Source of the DNA: Leptodesmis sichuanensis A121
Lineage (GTDB): Bacteria > Cyanobacteriota > Cyanobacteriia > Leptolyngbyales > Leptolyngbyaceae
Assembly (NCBI RefSeq): GCF_021379005.1
Contig: NZ_CP075171.1
Span: forward strand, 2,108,001 to 2,172,000
Length of the DNA: 64,000 bases
Direction of reading: 5' to 3'
The notes under the pieces are model-generated. The model worked only from the letters and a program-made list of their open reading frames with translations. It made no database searches and was not told the DNA's origin. Made by a program: the position numbers and the translations under genes. Below are positions 21,962 through 50,958 of this stretch, piece by piece; position 1 is the first letter of the stretch; each line of letters opens with the position of its first letter.

Positions 21962-22150
21962 GGCTCTTCCGGATCCGGGGTGAAAATCGTATAATATGAT
22001 ACTTTCAGTCAGGGATTGCGCCAATGGACATACATCTTGATAGATTGCTTAACGAGTGCATCCCACATTTGCGATGAGTATAAGTGCTTAGGGTTATGTT
22101 TGGGAGACAACGCTAAACTTTGAGCATTCCACCTTTAGCCGATAACTCCA

Positions 22151-22387
22151 ATGGACGCTGAGAAAAAAGCCCAAATTCAAGCCCATGCTCGTGCCCTTGC
22201 CGCTCTGCTGTACGAGGAAACCGACCCGGAGCAAGTAAAAACATTAGCAGGGATTGAGGTAGCAGTAAGAGGGCATCTGCTGGAACACGTCGGTCCAGAA
22301 CTCGGGGATTTTTTATTGCAACAAGCAGCGGCACCACAAGTGGACGAAAGCGCAGCCTCGACAGTATCGTCGGACGACTGCACTTGA
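22151..22387 (+). CDS. ISKra4 transposase N-terminal frame, 78 aa
   Basis: MDAEKKAQIQAHARALAALL begins the helical N-terminus seen in ISKra4 transposases. Its stop codon overlaps the TTG where the next frame opens (TTGA), so the full transposase would need -1 frameshifting or coupled re-initiation. This two-frame layout is known in part of the ISKra4 family. Confidence 0.8.
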   Translation: MDAEKKAQIQAHARALAALLYEETDPEQVKTLAGIEVAVRGHLLEHVGPELGDFLLQQAAAPQVDESAASTVSSDDCT

Positions 22388-23211
22388 GCGAGAAACAGGC
22401 ACAAATTCTGGAGGTGAAAGCCTACACACGCTGGAGTCCTTACCTGGAGCAGTGTTGTTTGTTGCTCAGTGCCAACGAGTCGTATGAGCGAGCGGCAGAA
22501 GACATCGAAGTGTTGACTGGGGTGAAGGTTACTCACAGCACTCAACAACGATTAGTCCATCGTCAAACCTTCGAGTTACCGCAAGTGGCAGGAGTGGTTG
22601 AGGAGATGAGTGTAGACGGCGGCAAAGTACGATTGCGAACCCCTCAAGGACAACCGAGTGAATGGCGAGATTACAAGGGGGTGAATCTGCACGAGTGCTG
22701 TGTGGCTGCTTTTTTCCAGGATAACGAGCAATTGGTTAACTGGGTCAACCCTCAACCCTTGTCTGACCCGCTCACTTGCTTAGGAGATGGGCACGATGGG
22801 ATCTGGAATATTTATGCCCAGATCGGCACCACGACCCAAAGACGGGAGATTTTGGATTGGTATCACCTCATCGAGAATTTGGGCAAGGTGGGTGGTTCCC
22901 AGCAACGTTTAGCGGTGGTGGAAGCCTGCTTGTGGCAGGGCGATGTCGAGGGAGCGATCATCCAGTTTGAGGATTGGCAACACGAGCGGGTTGCGACTTT
23001 CATTGCCTATCTCAACAAGCATCGACAGCGGATTGTCAACTATGGCTATTATCAAGCCGAAGGCATTTCCATTGGTTCTGGTGCAATTGAATCAACGGTC
23101 AAACAAGTCGGGCGGCGCGTCAAGATATCGGGGGCGCAGTGGGAAAAGGGTAACGTACCACAGGTGCTGAAGCAACGCTGTGCTTACCTTAATGGGCAAT
23201 TCTCAAAATGA
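22384..23211 (+). CDS. ISKra4 transposase catalytic frame, 275 aa
   Basis: Conserved ISKra4 blocks are present: LLLSANESYERAAEDIEVL, THSTQQRLVHRQ, MSVDGGKVRLRTP (first catalytic Asp), TCLGDGHDGIWNI (second Asp), REILDWYHLIENLGKV, and the C-terminal SIGSGAIESTVKQVGRRVK (catalytic Glu). The frame is open through to the inverted repeat, so the element may still encode an active enzyme if the two frames are joined. Confidence 0.88.
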   Translation: MSEKQAQILEVKAYTRWSPYLEQCCLLLSANESYERAAEDIEVLTGVKVTHSTQQRLVHRQTFELPQVAGVVEEMSVDGGKVRLRTPQGQPSEWRDYKGVNLHECCVAAFFQDNEQLVNWVNPQPLSDPLTCLGDGHDGIWNIYAQIGTTTQRREILDWYHLIENLGKVGGSQQRLAVVEACLWQGDVEGAIIQFEDWQHERVATFIAYLNKHRQRIVNYGYYQAEGISIGSGAIESTVKQVGRRVKISGAQWEKGNVPQVLKQRCAYLNGQFSK

Positions 23212-23235
23212 GTCTTACAAAACTGGGATGCACTC

Positions 23236-23754
23236 GGAGGGTTCCCAAAGGTAGTCAAGAAAGTGTTTCCCAATGCCGTGGTAGTGATTGACCGCTTTCA
23301 TGTCATGAAATTAGTCAATGAGGAGTTAAATAAAATTCGTAGACAATCGGGTGTATCAGACCGAGGTAGCAAATTCATTTTGCTCAAGAATGGCAAGGAT
23401 TTAACAGCAGAAGAAAAGACAAAGTTAGAAGAGATTCTGAAACGGTCAAAGCGATTAGGAAAAGCCTATGAGTGGAAAGAAGAGTTTCGCGCGATTTATG
23501 AACAACCATTAACCGTTGAGGAAGGCAAGCGTCAGATCCAAGGGTGGCTCGATCAAGCGCGAGTCGTCTATAGTGAAGCAAGCACAACGATTCGTAACCA
23601 TTTAGATGGGATTAGCAACTACTTTCGGAATCGCACAACGAGTGGCGCAATGGAGGGAATCAACAACCGAATTAAATTGATTAAACGGCAAGCTTATGGC
23701 TTTGTCAATTTCAACAATTTTCGAGAAAGACTATTAGCCTGCTTCTCTGATTAA
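23236..23754 (+). pseudogene. Truncated C-terminal half of ISL3 transposase
   Basis: It resumes at the sequence for GGFPKVVKKVFPNAVVVIDR of the complete copies and runs to the normal stop. It retains the second Asp and the Glu (TSGAMEGINNRIK) but lacks the zinc-finger N-terminus and the first catalytic Asp, so it cannot be functional. Confidence 0.9.
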
Positions 23755-28638: not shown

Positions 28639-28753
28639 AATCATTTGTACAACTCGGTTGAAAGATGCCTCCTGTGCAAGCCGCTGTTTTAGGGCTAATT
28701 CAACCTGCTTACGACGGGTGACATCACGACCCACCAACAGCACAGTGCCATTA

Positions 28754-29879
28754 TTGCTCCGGCAACTAAACACAAGACATAATGAATATACAGGCACAAG
28801 GAGGTTTGTGATGGATAAACCAGATGCCAGGCACCTCTCGATAGAAACCCAAAACTACCTGCGGCAGCAAGCGATTCGCCTCCGAGAGCAGGGCAAACGG
28901 GTTAAAGACATTAGTGAGTATTTGGGCGTTCACCGCAACACGGTATGGGAATGGTGGTGGGAGTATGAACATTATGGAGAGGATGCTCTCTATCAGTTAG
29001 AGCGGGGACGACAAGTGGGGGAGGGGCGAACCTTGGAGCGCTGGCAGGAAGAGGCCGTGCAAACGGCGATGCAAGATCATTTTCCGGAAGATTACCAGAT
29101 TGATAGTGCCCTGTGGACAAGACGAGCGGTGCAGGCATTAATGGAGCAAGTGTGTCAGGTGAAAATGCCAATTCGCACGGTGGGAGAGTATTTGAAACGC
29201 TGGGGGTACACGCCCAAGAAACCCGTAGAGCGAGCCTACGAGCAAGACCCAAAGACGGTACAACGGTGGTTGGAACACGAGTATCCGGAGATTGAGCAAC
29301 GGGCCAAAACCGAAGGAGCAGAGATTGCTTGGGGGGATGAATCAGGCGTGTCCTCGACTGAGTATGGCGGACGAGGGTATGCCTTGCTGGGCACGTCTCC
29401 TGAGATTCGTCCCAGTGAGCGCAACCGAGAGCGCGTCAATTACATTGCCAGTGTGAGTAACCAGGGAGGAGTCCAGTTTATGCTCTACACTTGCACGTTG
29501 GCAGCAGAACTGTTCATCCGATTTTGCCAGCGGTTGATCGCCAAGCGCCAGCGGAAACTATTTTGGATTGTGGACCGGCATCCCGTGCATCGGCAACAGA
29601 GCGTGAAACAGTGGTTACGAGAACACCTCGAGCAGATTGAGTTATTTTACTTACCCTCCTATTCGCCAGAATTGAATCCAACTGAATACTTCAATGGTGA
29701 TGTGAAGCAGGGCGTGCATGACAAACCACCGAGTCGTAATTTGAAGCAGTTGAAAGGGCGAGTGTTATCTCAATTGCGGAAGTTACAGAAGCTACCTGCT
29801 CGGATTAGAAATTATTTCAAGCATCCATTGATTGCTTATGCTGCGTTGTAGAATGCATTCTATTTTATTGCCGAGGCAA
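28754..29879 (+). mobile_element. IS630-family element with TA duplication
   Basis: The ends TTGCTCCGGCAA and TTGCCGAGGCAA are imperfect inverted repeats bordered by TA on both sides (28752-28753 and 29880-29881), the target duplication typical of IS630/Tc1. It holds one transposase gene. Excision with one TA restores the kinase frame precisely. Confidence 0.92.
28811..29851 (+). CDS. IS630-family transposase, 346 aa
   Basis: A helix-turn-helix N-terminus (RLREQGKRVKDISEYLGVHR, winged helix) and a DDE domain: IAWGDESGV (D1), FWIVDRHPVHRQ (D2) and YLPSYSPELNPTEYFNGDVK (E3). ATG 28811 is chosen because AAGGAGG lies six bases upstream. The frame is intact, so the element may be active. Confidence 0.94.
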   Translation: MDKPDARHLSIETQNYLRQQAIRLREQGKRVKDISEYLGVHRNTVWEWWWEYEHYGEDALYQLERGRQVGEGRTLERWQEEAVQTAMQDHFPEDYQIDSALWTRRAVQALMEQVCQVKMPIRTVGEYLKRWGYTPKKPVERAYEQDPKTVQRWLEHEYPEIEQRAKTEGAEIAWGDESGVSSTEYGGRGYALLGTSPEIRPSERNRERVNYIASVSNQGGVQFMLYTCTLAAELFIRFCQRLIAKRQRKLFWIVDRHPVHRQQSVKQWLREHLEQIELFYLPSYSPELNPTEYFNGDVKQGVHDKPPSRNLKQLKGRVLSQLRKLQKLPARIRNYFKHPLIAYAAL

Positions 29880-37392: not shown

Positions 37393-37467
37393 TCGTTCTC
37401 ATTCTGGCTGATTTGCACGGGCAAGGTTTATTTATCTATTACCTATCCACTCGTCATCTCATCACCC

Positions 37468-37603
37468 GAGAGCATGTCACCTTTGCAGGCCCTCATCCCC
37501 CAACCCCTTCTCCCAACCTGGGAGAAGGGGAGCCGAGCCATCTCAAAGTCCCTCTCCCAATTTGGGAGAGGGATTTAGGGTGAGGGCAAAAGTGACATGC
37601 ACC
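37468..37603. mobile_element. MITE-like palindromic element R2, copy 1 (136 bp)
   Basis: Terminal inverted repeats around GCATGTCAC(C/T)TTTGC and two internal hairpins (CCCCTTCTCCC-AACCT-GGGAGAAGGGG and CCCTCTCCCAA-TTTGGGAGAGGG). Flanked by a perfect 10-bp direct repeat CTCATCACCC (37458-37467 and 37604-37613). The right repeat overlaps the stop codon of the flavoprotein gene. Confidence 0.88.
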
Positions 37604-37607
37604 CTCA

Positions 37608-38855
37608 TCACCCCTTCACTTCCAGGGGGCGATTAATCCAGTTTTTGAGTTTAGAAATTAGCCGTGTCCACAGGGAATCCAATTTACGCAGAAGATGTTG
37701 AGGTAGCCCCTTAGAAACTTTTTCAAAGCGGTAATAAAATAGAATGTCAACCACATCTTCCAGACTTAGAGGCCGTAGATAAGTCACCACTTTATCAACA
37801 ATTTCATCACAATCCTGCAAATACTTTTTCTTACCAAACTTCTCCGACAGATTCCAGGAACGCAGAAAGACTTGATGCATTTCCGATTGATAAGTCTTGA
37901 AATCAGAACTGGTGCCATCGAGATAACTCTGGATGTATTTGCAGGCGATCTCTGCCCCTTGCATTGCATGACGAATTCCTTCCCCACCTAAGAAATTGAC
38001 TGTGGATACGGCATCCCCGATCGCAATCACATTATCCCGGTAATAGATATCATTCAGACCCGAACTATATTTCAAGGTGGCTCCATGAACCTCGATCAGT
38101 TTGTAACTTTTTAGCTTCATGTAGTCATCCAAAACCAGGTGAATATGGTGCTTGAGCGGCTGGTTCTGTTTGACAATTTGGTGATCCGCATTCACAACTG
38201 CAGACCCCACCTTTAACTGATTGGGTGCCATGGGAAAAATCCAGGAGTAGCCGCGGGGCATCCACTTATATCCCAGGAAAAAGGTGAGCGCATTAGCGTG
38301 CCGTTGATAATCTGCATCCTCAACTTCGATTAGATATTCAATTCCCGTACCACTTAAAAACTCTGGTTTTGGCTCCCCTTTGGCGTAAATGACAGACCGA
38401 AATGGCCCAGTTGCATCCACCAGTACACGAGTCGTCACAACTTCTTCCTGTCCCTCGCGCACCAGCAAGACAAGCGTTTCTCCATGCTTCTGTTCATGCC
38501 GGACGTAGCGGCAATTCATCCAGACCGCGCCCCCATTTCCTCTCACCTCATCTGCCAGGAACTCCCGCAATTTGGCAAAGTCTAACACTACACCGAGGGG
38601 CGATCGGGCCTGCCAGCGACCACTTTGATTCGAGGTGATGACAACAAATTGATCCCAGTAGCTGCCCACGATACTATCCGGTAGTCCATAGCGCTCCAGG
38701 GTTTCTAAAGGGGTTCCGGCACTGGAAAAACTGTTGGTCACAAAGTCCTTGTGGCGTTCCACTAACAACACCTTCCGGCCTGCCTTCGTTAGCACCCGCG
38801 CGCACTGCCCTCCCGCTGGGCCACCACCAACCACCACCACATCAAATTGCTGCAT
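37608..38855 (-). CDS. Geranylgeranyl-reductase-family FAD-dependent oxidoreductase, 415 aa
   Basis: An N-terminal Rossmann FAD site (DVVVVGGGPAGGQCARVLTK, acidic/basic end VERHK), the middle motif VDATGPFRSVIYA, the substrate-domain motif RGYSWIFPMAPNQLKVG and the C-terminal FAD motif VIAIGDAVSTVNFLGGEGIRHA match the ChlP/GGR and related hydroxylase-fold family. True ChlP is usually better conserved, so this is probably a paralogue acting on a lipid or isoprenoid; its substrate cannot be told. The stop codon lies within the 10-bp duplication of an R2 element. Confidence 0.85.
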   Translation of the reverse strand: MQQFDVVVVGGGPAGGQCARVLTKAGRKVLLVERHKDFVTNSFSSAGTPLETLERYGLPDSIVGSYWDQFVVITSNQSGRWQARSPLGVVLDFAKLREFLADEVRGNGGAVWMNCRYVRHEQKHGETLVLLVREGQEEVVTTRVLVDATGPFRSVIYAKGEPKPEFLSGTGIEYLIEVEDADYQRHANALTFFLGYKWMPRGYSWIFPMAPNQLKVGSAVVNADHQIVKQNQPLKHHIHLVLDDYMKLKSYKLIEVHGATLKYSSGLNDIYYRDNVIAIGDAVSTVNFLGGEGIRHAMQGAEIACKYIQSYLDGTSSDFKTYQSEMHQVFLRSWNLSEKFGKKKYLQDCDEIVDKVVTYLRPLSLEDVVDILFYYRFEKVSKGLPQHLLRKLDSLWTRLISKLKNWINRPLEVKG

Positions 38856-38983: not shown

Positions 38984-40230
38984 GGCTCTTCCGGATCCGG
39001 GGTGAAAATCGTATAATATGATACTTTCAGTCAGGGATTGCGCCAATGGACATACATCTTGATAGATTGCTTAACTTCCCTCACGTTACGGTTGAAAGTT
39101 GCATTCAAAAAGACAATGAAGTGTACTTAAAGTTGCGCTTGCTCAATCAAGAATCTAGCTGTCCACACTGTAAGAAATTAAGTTCAGAGTTGCATCAAAA
39201 CCGTCCGATTTTGATTCGAGACCTATCGATTTTTGGCCAAGTCACTTATTTGAAAATTCCTCGTCGTCAGTTTTATTGTCGTGATTGCCAACGTTATTTT
39301 ACTGAGTCATTGACATTTATGGATGCAGGACGGCAGTACACTCGACGCTATGAGGAGCATATTTACCAGCAAGTACAACTGTCAAGTATGGAGCAAGTGG
39401 GTCGCGTAGAAGGATTAAGCTTTGAGCGCATTGAAGGGATTTTCAAGCATCAGTATGCACAGAAAAAAACACGGGATGGGCAGGAGTCAAACGCATTGGG
39501 ATTGATGAAATCAGCAAGCGGAAAGGGCATCAAAACTTCGCCACCGTTATCGGCGACGTTGAGGCCGGGAAATTGATTGAAGTGATTGACAGTCACCAAC
39601 AGGAAGACATTATTGAAACCCTGAAGCAGCAGCCCATAGAGGTGCGTGCAAAAGTTGAAGAGGTGAGCGTGGATATGTGGGGAGGATTCCCAAAGGTAGT
39701 CAAGAAAGTGTTTCCCAATGCCGTGGTAGTGATTGACCGCTTTCATGTCATGAAATTAGTCAATGAGGAGTTAAATAAAATTCGTAGACAATCGGGTGTA
39801 TCAGACCGAGGTAGCAAATTCATTTTGCTCAAGAATGGCAAGGATTTAACAGCAGAAGAAAAGACAAAGTTAGAAGAGATTCTGAAACGGTCAAAGCGAT
39901 TAGGAAAAGCCTATGAGTGGAAAGAAGAGTTTCGCGCGATTTATGAACAACCATTAACCGTTGAGGAAGGCAAGCGTCAGATCCAAGGGTGGCTCGATCA
40001 AGCGCGAGTCGTCTATAGTGAAGCAAGCACAACGATTCGTAACCATTTAGATGGGATTAGCAACTACTTTCGGAATCGCACAACGAGTGGCGCAATGGAG
40101 GGAATCAACAACCGAATTAAATTGATTAAACGGCAAGCTTATGGCTTTGTCAATTTCAACAATTTTCGAGAAAGACTATTAGCCTGCTTCTCTGATTAAA
40201 TAAAGTTATCACAGTACTAACGGGAGAACC
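38984..40230 (+). mobile_element. ISL3-family element, copy 3 (1,247 bp)
   Basis: Left end GGCTCTTCCGGATCC, right end CGGGAGAACC, flanked by a perfect 8-bp duplication AGCCTTGT (38976-38983 and 40231-40238). The duplicated bases belong to one arm of hairpin repeat R3 copy D, so the IS landed in that repeat. Confidence 0.95.
39046..40199 (+). CDS. ISL3-family transposase, two frames joined at an A7 run
   Basis: Frame 1 (39046-39576) has the zinc-ribbon region (CPHCKKLSSELH); frame 2 (to 40199) has the catalytic core. The junction is an A7 run at 39473-39479 (CAG AAA AAA ACA). Reading one extra A gives a continuous transposase with KRIGIDEISKRKGH, SVDMWGGFP and SGAMEGINN. Only two residue differences from copy 2 were noticed (Ser/Leu in CKKxSSEL and Ile/Thr in IIExLKQQ). 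Confidence 0.85.
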
Positions 40231-48404: not shown

Positions 48405-48667
48405 AGTCTTGCAACTCCGTTCACGATGGTTTTGGGCTAACGAAGAGCATCCCCACCCTTCAGCATGGAAAAGTATCTAGCTCTCGTTGAGATTTGATTG
48501 CAGCTAATGTACCACCTGCGAACGAAATTGATACCCGAATATTTTGTTGTTTTCAATGGAAAGTTACAAAACTTTTTAAAGGCAGAAGAAGGCAGAAGGC
48601 TGTGGAGTAGAGTTTTAAGTTTTGAATTCTGAGTTTTGAATTAATGCAGAACTGAAAATCTCAGGCG

Positions 48668-48803
48668 GGTGCATATCACTTTTGCCCTCACCCTAAATCC
48701 CTCTCCCAAATTGGGAGAGGGACTTTGAGATGGCTCGACTCCCCTTCTCCCAGCTTGGGAGAAGGGGCTGGGGGATGAGGGTCTGCAAAGGTGACATACT
48801 CTC
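48668..48803. mobile_element. MITE-like palindromic element R2, copy 2 (about 136 bp)
   Basis: GGTGCATATCACTTTTGCCC at one end and GTGACATACTCTC at the other, with the same two internal hairpins as the other copies. The flanks ATCTCAGGCG and TCTCAGACTC share TCTCAG, like a decayed duplication. The rest of 48405-48936 holds gene upstream sequence and heptamer repeats. Confidence 0.82.
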
Positions 48804-49490: not shown

Positions 49491-50318
49491 ATGGCACAGC
49501 GCTATGTCCGGGTTCAGACGGTAGACGGACAAGTCCACTACGGTCTTCTGCAAATTGATCGGCAAGTTCGCCTACTGGATGCACCACCCTGGTTAGAGGG
49601 GCAACCGACGAATCAGGAGTTGGCACCAGGACAGTATCAACTGCTGGCTCCCTGTGCACCCTCTAAAATCGTGGCAGTAGGCAGAAATTATGTGAATCAT
49701 GCCAGAGAACTGGGTAATTCGGTTCCAGCAGAGCCACTCCTGTTCCTGAAACCGACAACGGCTGTGATTGCTGCGGACGCAGCCATTCAATACCCCAGCC
49801 AGTCCATACGGGTAGATTATGAAGGGGAACTGGCGCTGGTGATCGGCGATCGCTGTGTGGACTGTACCCCAGAGCAGGCCCGCAACAAAATTTGGGGCTA
49901 CACGATCGCCAATGATGTCACCGCCAGAGACTTACAAAAGAGTGATGGCCAGTGGACTCGCGCCAAAGGTTTTGACACCTTCTGTCCCCTTGGTCCCTGG
50001 ATTGTTCGGGAACTCAGCCCGGGCGCGCGGCTACAAACTTTTTTGAACGATGACCCAAATCCAGTGCAATCGGCTTCGATCGAAGAGATGGTCTTTCCCC
50101 CGGATGTGATTGTGTCCTACATCAGCCAGGTAATGACCTTATTGCCGGGAGATGTGGTGCTGACCGGAACGCCAGAAGGAATTGGGCCGATGCAGGTGGG
50201 CGATCGCGTCCGCGTGGAGATCGAGGGCATCGGCTACTTAGACAACTACCTGATTGCCAGACATCCCGAACCCGTACAGACCAATTCCGACGATTTCGTT
50301 GCCGGCAGCAATCCTTAA
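49491..50318 (+). CDS. Fumarylacetoacetate-hydrolase-family protein, 275 aa
   Basis: The FAH fold: IVAVGRNYVNHARELGNSVP, LLFLKPTTAVIAADAAIQYP, the metal ligands in VDYEGELALVIGDRC (Glu/Glu) and TIANDVTARDLQ (Asp), and GDVVLTGTPEGIGPMQVGD. Such enzymes act on 2-oxo acids or acylpyruvates (hydrolase or decarboxylase); the substrate is unknown. Its stop codon TAA lies in a 10-bp sequence that is duplicated on the other side of an R2 element. Confidence 0.93.
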   Translation: MAQRYVRVQTVDGQVHYGLLQIDRQVRLLDAPPWLEGQPTNQELAPGQYQLLAPCAPSKIVAVGRNYVNHARELGNSVPAEPLLFLKPTTAVIAADAAIQYPSQSIRVDYEGELALVIGDRCVDCTPEQARNKIWGYTIANDVTARDLQKSDGQWTRAKGFDTFCPLGPWIVRELSPGARLQTFLNDDPNPVQSASIEEMVFPPDVIVSYISQVMTLLPGDVVLTGTPEGIGPMQVGDRVRVEIEGIGYLDNYLIARHPEPVQTNSDDFVAGSNP

Positions 50319-50320
50319 CG

Positions 50321-50456
50321 GGTGCATGTCACTTTTGCCCTCACCCTAAATCCCTCCCCCAAATTGGGAGAGTGACTTTGAGATGGCTCGGCTCCCCTTC
50401 TCCCAACCTGGGAGAAGGGGCTGGGGGATGAGGGCCTGCAAAGGTGACATGCTCTC
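50321..50456. mobile_element. MITE-like palindromic element R2, copy 3 (136 bp)
   Basis: Ends GGTGCATGTCAC and GTGACATGCTCTC, two internal hairpins, flanked by the perfect 10-bp direct repeat ATCCTTAACG (50311-50320 and 50457-50466). Each copy of the duplication holds the stop codon of a convergent gene. Its hairpins probably now act as a bidirectional terminator. Confidence 0.9.
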
Positions 50457-50460
50457 ATCC

Positions 50461-50958
50461 TTAACGAACCTGAGTGTAGGCCGCCTCAGAGATAGTGGGA
50501 ATTTCTGCATAGCGGCCTAAAGCCGACTGCACGATCGAGTAACCCACGGCTGCCACAACAGCTAGAAATATGGTGTTAAAGATGGTCTGCGTAACTAAGC
50601 TGGACGTGGAGAAGATTGAGCTAAATACAAAACTCCAGAGAATTGAAAATAGACTCAACACAATGCCAATTAGAATCGACTGCATGGCATTGAAGCGAAT
50701 GAAGTGAGGTACAGCCTCATTGCGTACTACCAGCATGTACAGGGCAAAGAAGATAATCAGAGGCAAAAAGGGGAAGCCGTAGTAGATATTGAGCAATGGG
50801 CTAAGGGGCTTAACAATAGCTACCAGAAGCGGAGCTAGAAATGAATCAGATGTTTGGAACACGTTAAAAACTAAACCCACCACATCCATTAGTGGGAGCA
50901 GGTAGACCAGACATGAAAAAATCCGATCGGAAGGGGTTGTTGAGCCGCGCCAAGCCAT
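50461..50958 (-). CDS. Tic20-like membrane protein, 165 aa
   Basis: Four hydrophobic segments in the Tic20/Ycf60 arrangement: IFSCLVYLLPLMDVVGLVFN, FLPLIIFFALYMLVVRN, FIRFNAMQSILIGIVLSLF and NTIFLAVVAAVGYSIVQSAL. The motif FIRFNAMQSI is the family signature. Chloroplast Tic20 is part of the inner-envelope translocon; the cyanobacterial role is unsettled. The gene is convergent to the FAH gene with an R2 element between them. Confidence 0.9.
   Translation of the reverse strand: MAWRGSTTPSDRIFSCLVYLLPLMDVVGLVFNVFQTSDSFLAPLLVAIVKPLSPLLNIYYGFPFLPLIIFFALYMLVVRNEAVPHFIRFNAMQSILIGIVLSLFSILWSFVFSSIFSTSSLVTQTIFNTIFLAVVAAVGYSIVQSALGRYAEIPTISEAAYTQVR

Follow-up and report, generated by a model that had tools for sequence, protein, structure and literature searches.

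The repeat that separates the FAA-hydrolase-like (FAH) and Tic20-like genes of Leptodesmis sichuanensis A121 is, we conclude with high confidence, a 137-bp MITE, probably mobilised by an ISKra4-family transposase, and its interior is an interchangeable double hairpin that is common to unrelated sets of ends.

The 137-bp element and its target duplications

The genome of L. sichuanensis A121 is a single contig of 5,348,817 bases, in which the element occurs about 40 times as a copy or fragment. Three copies, 94-96% identical to each other, are present in the window (the whole 64-kb stretch of DNA that was analysed): copy 1 at 37468-37604 on the minus strand, copy 2 at 48667-48803 on the plus strand and copy 3 at 50320-50456 on the plus strand, the last with the ends GGGTGCATGTCAC / GAGAGCATGTCAC. 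In the preliminary description the repeat was given as a MITE-like element of 136 bp, and the corresponding extents were confirmed (37468-37603 on the minus strand, 48668-48803 and 50321-50456 on the plus strand). It is indeed a MITE, being short, non-coding, bounded by terminal inverted repeats and present in 33 full copies in the genome. Its length had to be corrected to 137 bp: the first G, previously given to the flank, is part of the element because the right flank lacks this G in most of the exactly duplicated copies. Well-preserved copies start with GGGTGC and end with GCTCTC or ACTCTC, with minor variants.

The flanks of the 33 full-length copies, two of which are enlarged by inserted sequence, were compared side against side. 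Exact target duplications were found at 26 of them, 8 bp long at 20 copies, 9 bp long at six and 10 bp long at none; five of the remaining copies have a duplication with one or two mismatches and two have no duplication. Duplications of 10 bp had been proposed from the window, where copies 1 and 3 are indeed bordered by perfect 10-mers, but the genome-wide comparison places both copies in the 9-bp class. They look like 10-mers because the genomic base that follows the 9-bp duplication also happens to be a G. Nor is the 9-bp class an 8-bp duplication followed by a spacer, because the ninth base matches in all of its members whereas chance would give about 1/4, and no copy with 8 bp plus a spacer was found among the full copies compared. 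At copy 3 the duplications (ATCCTTAAC) occupy positions 50311-50319 and 50457-50465; at copy 1 they occupy positions 37459-37467 (TCATCACCC, read on the plus strand) and, on the other side, 37605-37613. Copy 2 had been described as retaining only a decayed flank; its duplication (TCTCAGGC/TCTCAGAC) is 8 bp long and has a single mismatch, and the decay is therefore slight. Two copies elsewhere in the genome (L004 and L026) share the identical duplication GACTTGAG and nearly identical flanks, and for this reason look like the outcome of a later segmental duplication rather than of two insertions.

Placement of the element relative to genes and stop codons

As had been described, copies 1 and 3 both have stop codons within their duplications. 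The left duplication of copy 3 contains the TAA (50316-50318) of the FAH gene (PF01557; 49491-50318, plus strand), and the right one contains the TAA (50461-50463, minus strand) of the Tic20-like gene (PF16166; 50461-50958, minus strand). At copy 1, the duplication at 37605-37613 overlaps the TGA (37608-37610, minus strand) of the adjoining FAD-dependent oxidoreductase-like (flavoprotein) gene (37608-38855, minus strand). With the element in place, the FAH and Tic20-like genes are separated by 142 bp; in-silico removal of the 137 bp and of one 9-bp duplication turns this gap into a 4-bp overlap of the two genes. In relatives, the FAH and Tic20-like genes usually lie side by side in convergent orientation, and the overlap is exactly 4 bp in 9 of the 29 other loci examined. 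The proposal that the two stop codons overlapped before insertion is thus borne out by the removal and by the same arrangement in nine relatives. These relatives, in which the site is empty, are other species and not sister strains, and for this reason the exact 9-mer is not conserved at the empty sites.

Genes were called with a home-made 3-periodic Markov caller and the empty site of each insertion was rebuilt; since the caller missed the Tic20-like gene at its first threshold, counts near stops are approximate. In the genome of L. sichuanensis, 2-3 of 31 sites overlap a stop codon, and the background, determined on 464 kb of the same genome (the window plus twenty random 20-kb samples), is 2.7% of intergenic 8-bp stretches. 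A wider set of 57 sites was assembled from this genome, G025, G026, G040 and a few single loci, one locus being counted twice. Intergenic sites account for 53 of the 57, and the four sites called inside genes are doubtful, two of them being one locus counted twice. The proportion of intergenic sites is about 93%, compared to about 31% expected by chance (p about 1e-22). Genes are strongly avoided, or insertions in genes are lost; the earlier statement that target choice spares genes holds as a pattern, but purifying selection explains this pattern equally well. Alignment of the sites revealed a weak palindromic preference, with an A before and a T after the 8 bp and a T at the third base.

The preliminary description further proposed that the element inserts at stop codons and may supply a terminator. 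Both copy 1 and copy 3 are located at stop codons, and in the wider set 5 of the 53 intergenic sites overlap a stop, compared to 1.9% of intergenic positions at the same loci (p = 0.003). This excess includes the two copies from which the proposal arose; when they are left out, 3 of 51 sites overlap a stop (p = 0.07) and, as in the 31 sites of the genome itself, no clear excess is seen. Most sites lie tens to hundreds of bp away from any stop, many of them between divergent genes. The terminator signature is absent as well: a simple scan for intrinsic terminators detected none within the elements or beside them, and neither hairpin in the window has a T-tract. Targeting of stop codons or of the 3' ends of genes, combined with the supply of a terminator, is accordingly very improbable, and contact with stop codons is a minor tendency at most.

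A candidate ISKra4-family helper

The repeat had been regarded as a non-autonomous mobile element, and the search for a transposase with matching ends led to an autonomous ISKra4-family IS present in three copies in the same genome; the non-autonomous nature of the element is upheld, and the IS provides a candidate helper for the 137-bp MITE. In a profile search with NF033572, the model for ISKra4, the genome yielded 104 matches, of which many lie above the cut-off. The candidate partner IS is 1155 bp long, has the ends GGGTGCATGTCACC / GGGTGCGTGTCACC, and its three copies (L048, L052 and L054) are more than 99% identical and are all flanked by 9-bp duplications (TTGGCGCAT, GCTTAGGAT and CGGCAACTT). 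The transposase is split between two frames, with a T-run where they meet, and appears to be read with a frameshift, in the way reported for ISKra4-type elements of the ISMich2 group (PMC3942029). A different ISKra4-family IS, which also scores above the NF033572 cut-off, is present in the window at 22054-23235 on the plus strand (ends GAGTGCATCCCAC/GAGTGCATCCCAG); copies of this IS have 8-bp duplications and its end type is related (MITE class B).

The exact helper is uncertain, because the match between the ends of the partner IS and those of the MITE breaks off after about 13 bp, and because similar ends also occur in a second ISKra4 IS (L067 type). The length of the duplications, 8 or 9 bp for the MITE, 9 bp for the partner IS (3/3) and 8 bp for the other ISKra4 IS, counts against the partner IS in that the MITE mostly has 8-bp duplications. 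Furthermore, no match to the partner IS was found in G025, though this genome has near-identical MITEs (up to 98%). From the shared ends and duplications we infer that a transposase of the ISKra4 family (a DDE enzyme of the Mutator superfamily) acts in trans to move the 137-bp MITE. This transposase would recognise the ends of about 19 bp (GGGTGCATGTCACYTTTGC) and make staggered cuts of 8 or 9 bp at target sites carrying a weak palindromic preference only. Insertion would occur mostly into intergenic DNA, or mostly intergenic copies would survive.

ISL3 elements likewise make 8-bp duplications; ISL3 was set aside as a helper, as the matching ends belong to the ISKra4 IS. Elsewhere in the window, at 23263-23754, 28658-29851 and 39046-40199, are further IS copies or remnants, comprising pieces of the ISL3 family and a gene for a DDE_3 (IS630-type) transposase.

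A core found between different ends and its relation to known elements

When 58 genomes of the class were searched at the DNA level with the element, 48 gave matches, often restricted to positions 17-116. Inspection of the matches identified a double-hairpin core of about 97 bp, CCCTCACCCTAAATCCCTCTCCC-loop-GGGAGAGGGACTT...CGGCTCCCCTTCTCCC-loop-GGGAGAAGGGGYTGGGGGATGAGGG, that is found between different ends. In copy 3 this core extends from 50338 to 50434 on the plus strand (CCCTCACCC...GATGAGGG), with hairpin 2 at 50394-50420 (CCCCTTCTCCC-loop-GGGAGAAGGGG, plus strand). The cores were catalogued according to their ends. Exact duplications of 8/9 bp flank 58 of the 93 cores with ISKra4-like ends, exact 8-bp duplications 11 of the 16 with GTAACTACTCAG ends (mainly from one Leptolyngbyaceae MAG) and exact 6-bp duplications five of the seven with CAATACTTCGGACAG ends; in four families of the TA type, matching dinucleotides were present in 28 of 36 cases, 27 of them being TA. 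Four kinds of MITE with the core coexist in the genome of L. sichuanensis: the 137-bp MITE, a GGGTGTATCCCAC kind (L037, L038 and L385), a TA kind with GTGCTCTGTGGCGTAAG ends (L039, L040, L380, L386 and L387) and a 6-bp kind (L381 and L388). The TA kind (class F) has ends that resemble those of an IS630-family element flanked by TA, located at G000:C1:1466219 in this genome. The TA family of G004 measures 142 bp and has siblings that share its ends but lack the core. IS66 was considered as a helper of the MITEs with GTAACTACTCAG ends; this assignment was dropped, no PF03050 match being found in the genome that carries them, a MAG of unknown completeness.

Several other arrangements were observed. 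Further ends around the core (ACSYGATGTGCAACT in L207, L208 and L102; TATTAACCTGGCA in L092) occur in too few copies to establish a duplication length. Hairpin 1 is interrupted by sequence starting at about GGGCTACTGTGTACAGACATCTCGG in the MITE copies L034, L041 and L044 and is broken by another insert in L035; we read these four as nested or variant elements. A related single-hairpin unit (CCCTCACCCCC...CCCTCTCCCAAGTTTGGGAGAGGG; L382, L383, L391, L392 and L393) is present in another repeat, which has the ends AGGATCATGGATTTAATAAC and at least five copies. An exact-pattern scan of named genomes gave, among the matches listed, many cyanobacteria and a few Anaerolineae/Chloroflexi MAG contigs (L245, L249, L254, L288 and L303), the latter possibly resulting from spread across phyla or from misbinning.

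The best core identities between end types, with the L243 rows left out, are 87-97% over at least 92 bases (E about 5e-29 or lower). When 36 cores representing seven end families are aligned, paired and unpaired positions are both conserved, including GACTT and CTGGGGGATGAGGG, two motifs that are absent from the pattern used for the collection scan; for the named contigs, the search pattern itself accounts for part of the conservation of the core. A tree of 88 cores requires six changes among four end types (minimum three) and 10 among seven families (minimum six). The tree is poorly resolved and few of its branches are supported; the core has thus changed ends several times, the number of changes not being settled by the tree. 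The single strand folds much better than shuffled sequences, with z values of -5.7 as DNA and -7.9 as RNA. The loops of the two hairpins are found in both orientations at similar frequency in the copies of L. sichuanensis (L001-L036, and copy 1 compared with copy 3; AATTT/AAATT and AACCT/AGGTT), suggesting that small inversions between the palindromic arms are frequent. Because it is joined to several unrelated sets of ends, the core is a MITE interior of an interchangeable kind rather than what is left of a single IS. Combined, these results make it likely that a single cassette of about 97 bp has been packaged repeatedly between the ends of unrelated transposon families in Cyanobacteria and possibly Chloroflexota, using whichever transposase is available; the families would comprise ISKra4/Mutator, IS630/Tc1-mariner (which targets TA) and at least two others whose duplications are 6 or 8 bp long. 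New ends would be acquired by the core probably through recombination or template switching at its palindromes.

The main alternative is a REPIN-like origin, in which the core would consist of two inverted REP-type palindromes with their own RAYT/Y1 tyrosine transposase and would have inserted repeatedly into the middle of MITEs. The core is made of two inverted copies of one palindromic unit, its boundaries are sharp inside unrelated ends, and coreless elements with the same ends occur (L360, L370 and L402), all of which would fit such an origin. The coreless siblings, however, differ in their interior, so that no clean pair of empty and filled elements was found, and the GTAG/CGTC tag of REP super-families (PMC3733652) was not seen at the edges of the core; an origin of this type is rather unlikely. 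Somewhat more plausible, though still a tentative reading, is that the core benefits any MITE, for instance through a structure that protects or insulates the insertion site, and that independent MITEs having captured it by recombination were amplified. Its near-invariant sequence across end types and genomes, including the unpaired GACTT and TAAAT, and its presence in some form in 48 of the 58 genomes searched argue for an advantage of this kind. Against it, the function is hypothetical, the conservation is in part a matter of ascertainment, and neither the terminator scan nor Rfam gave a match: for the element, Rfam returned nothing at gathering scores and, below them, only chance matches to unrelated families.

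Bacterial MITEs are usually regarded as deletion relics of one IS. If repeated packaging of a conserved interior between changing ends is true, part of the MITE pool evolves as modules, and the interior rather than the transposase decides which elements spread. How MITEs arise, and why the intergenic DNA of cyanobacteria is so rich in hairpin cores, thereby becomes a question that can be tested.

ISKra4-family IS belong to the Mutator superfamily (p-MULT 4, with the ISAzba1, ISMich2 and ISKra4 groups; PMC3942029). The 137-bp MITE is similar to them in its ends (GGGTGCATGTCAC) and in its 8/9-bp duplications, as found for the ISKra4 copies of the same genome, and differs from them in having no coding capacity and an interior that is not derived from the ISKra4-family IS. 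It is short, structured, mostly intergenic and multi-copy and has terminal inverted repeats, like other cyanobacterial MITEs (Nezha; Anabaena sp. 90, PMC3542288; review PMC10969869), the comparison with Nezha and the Anabaena sp. 90 MITEs being one of descriptions. For the MITEs of Anabaena sp. 90, no matching IS ends could be identified in their own genome (PMC3542288), and in the open-licence literature we found no published account of one core common to MITEs with unrelated ends. The core shares with REPIN and BIME (PMC3116915, PMC2817692) the doublet of inverted palindromes; unlike them, it is located inside elements with terminal repeats and target duplications, and no known REP tag was seen at its edges. 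Finally, class C, class F and two Nostoc families are TA-flanked like IS630/Tc1-mariner MITEs, and for class F the likeness extends to the ends, which resemble those of an IS630-family element in the genome of L. sichuanensis; unlike those MITEs, the TA-flanked classes carry the core of the ISKra4-type MITE despite the different kind of transposase.
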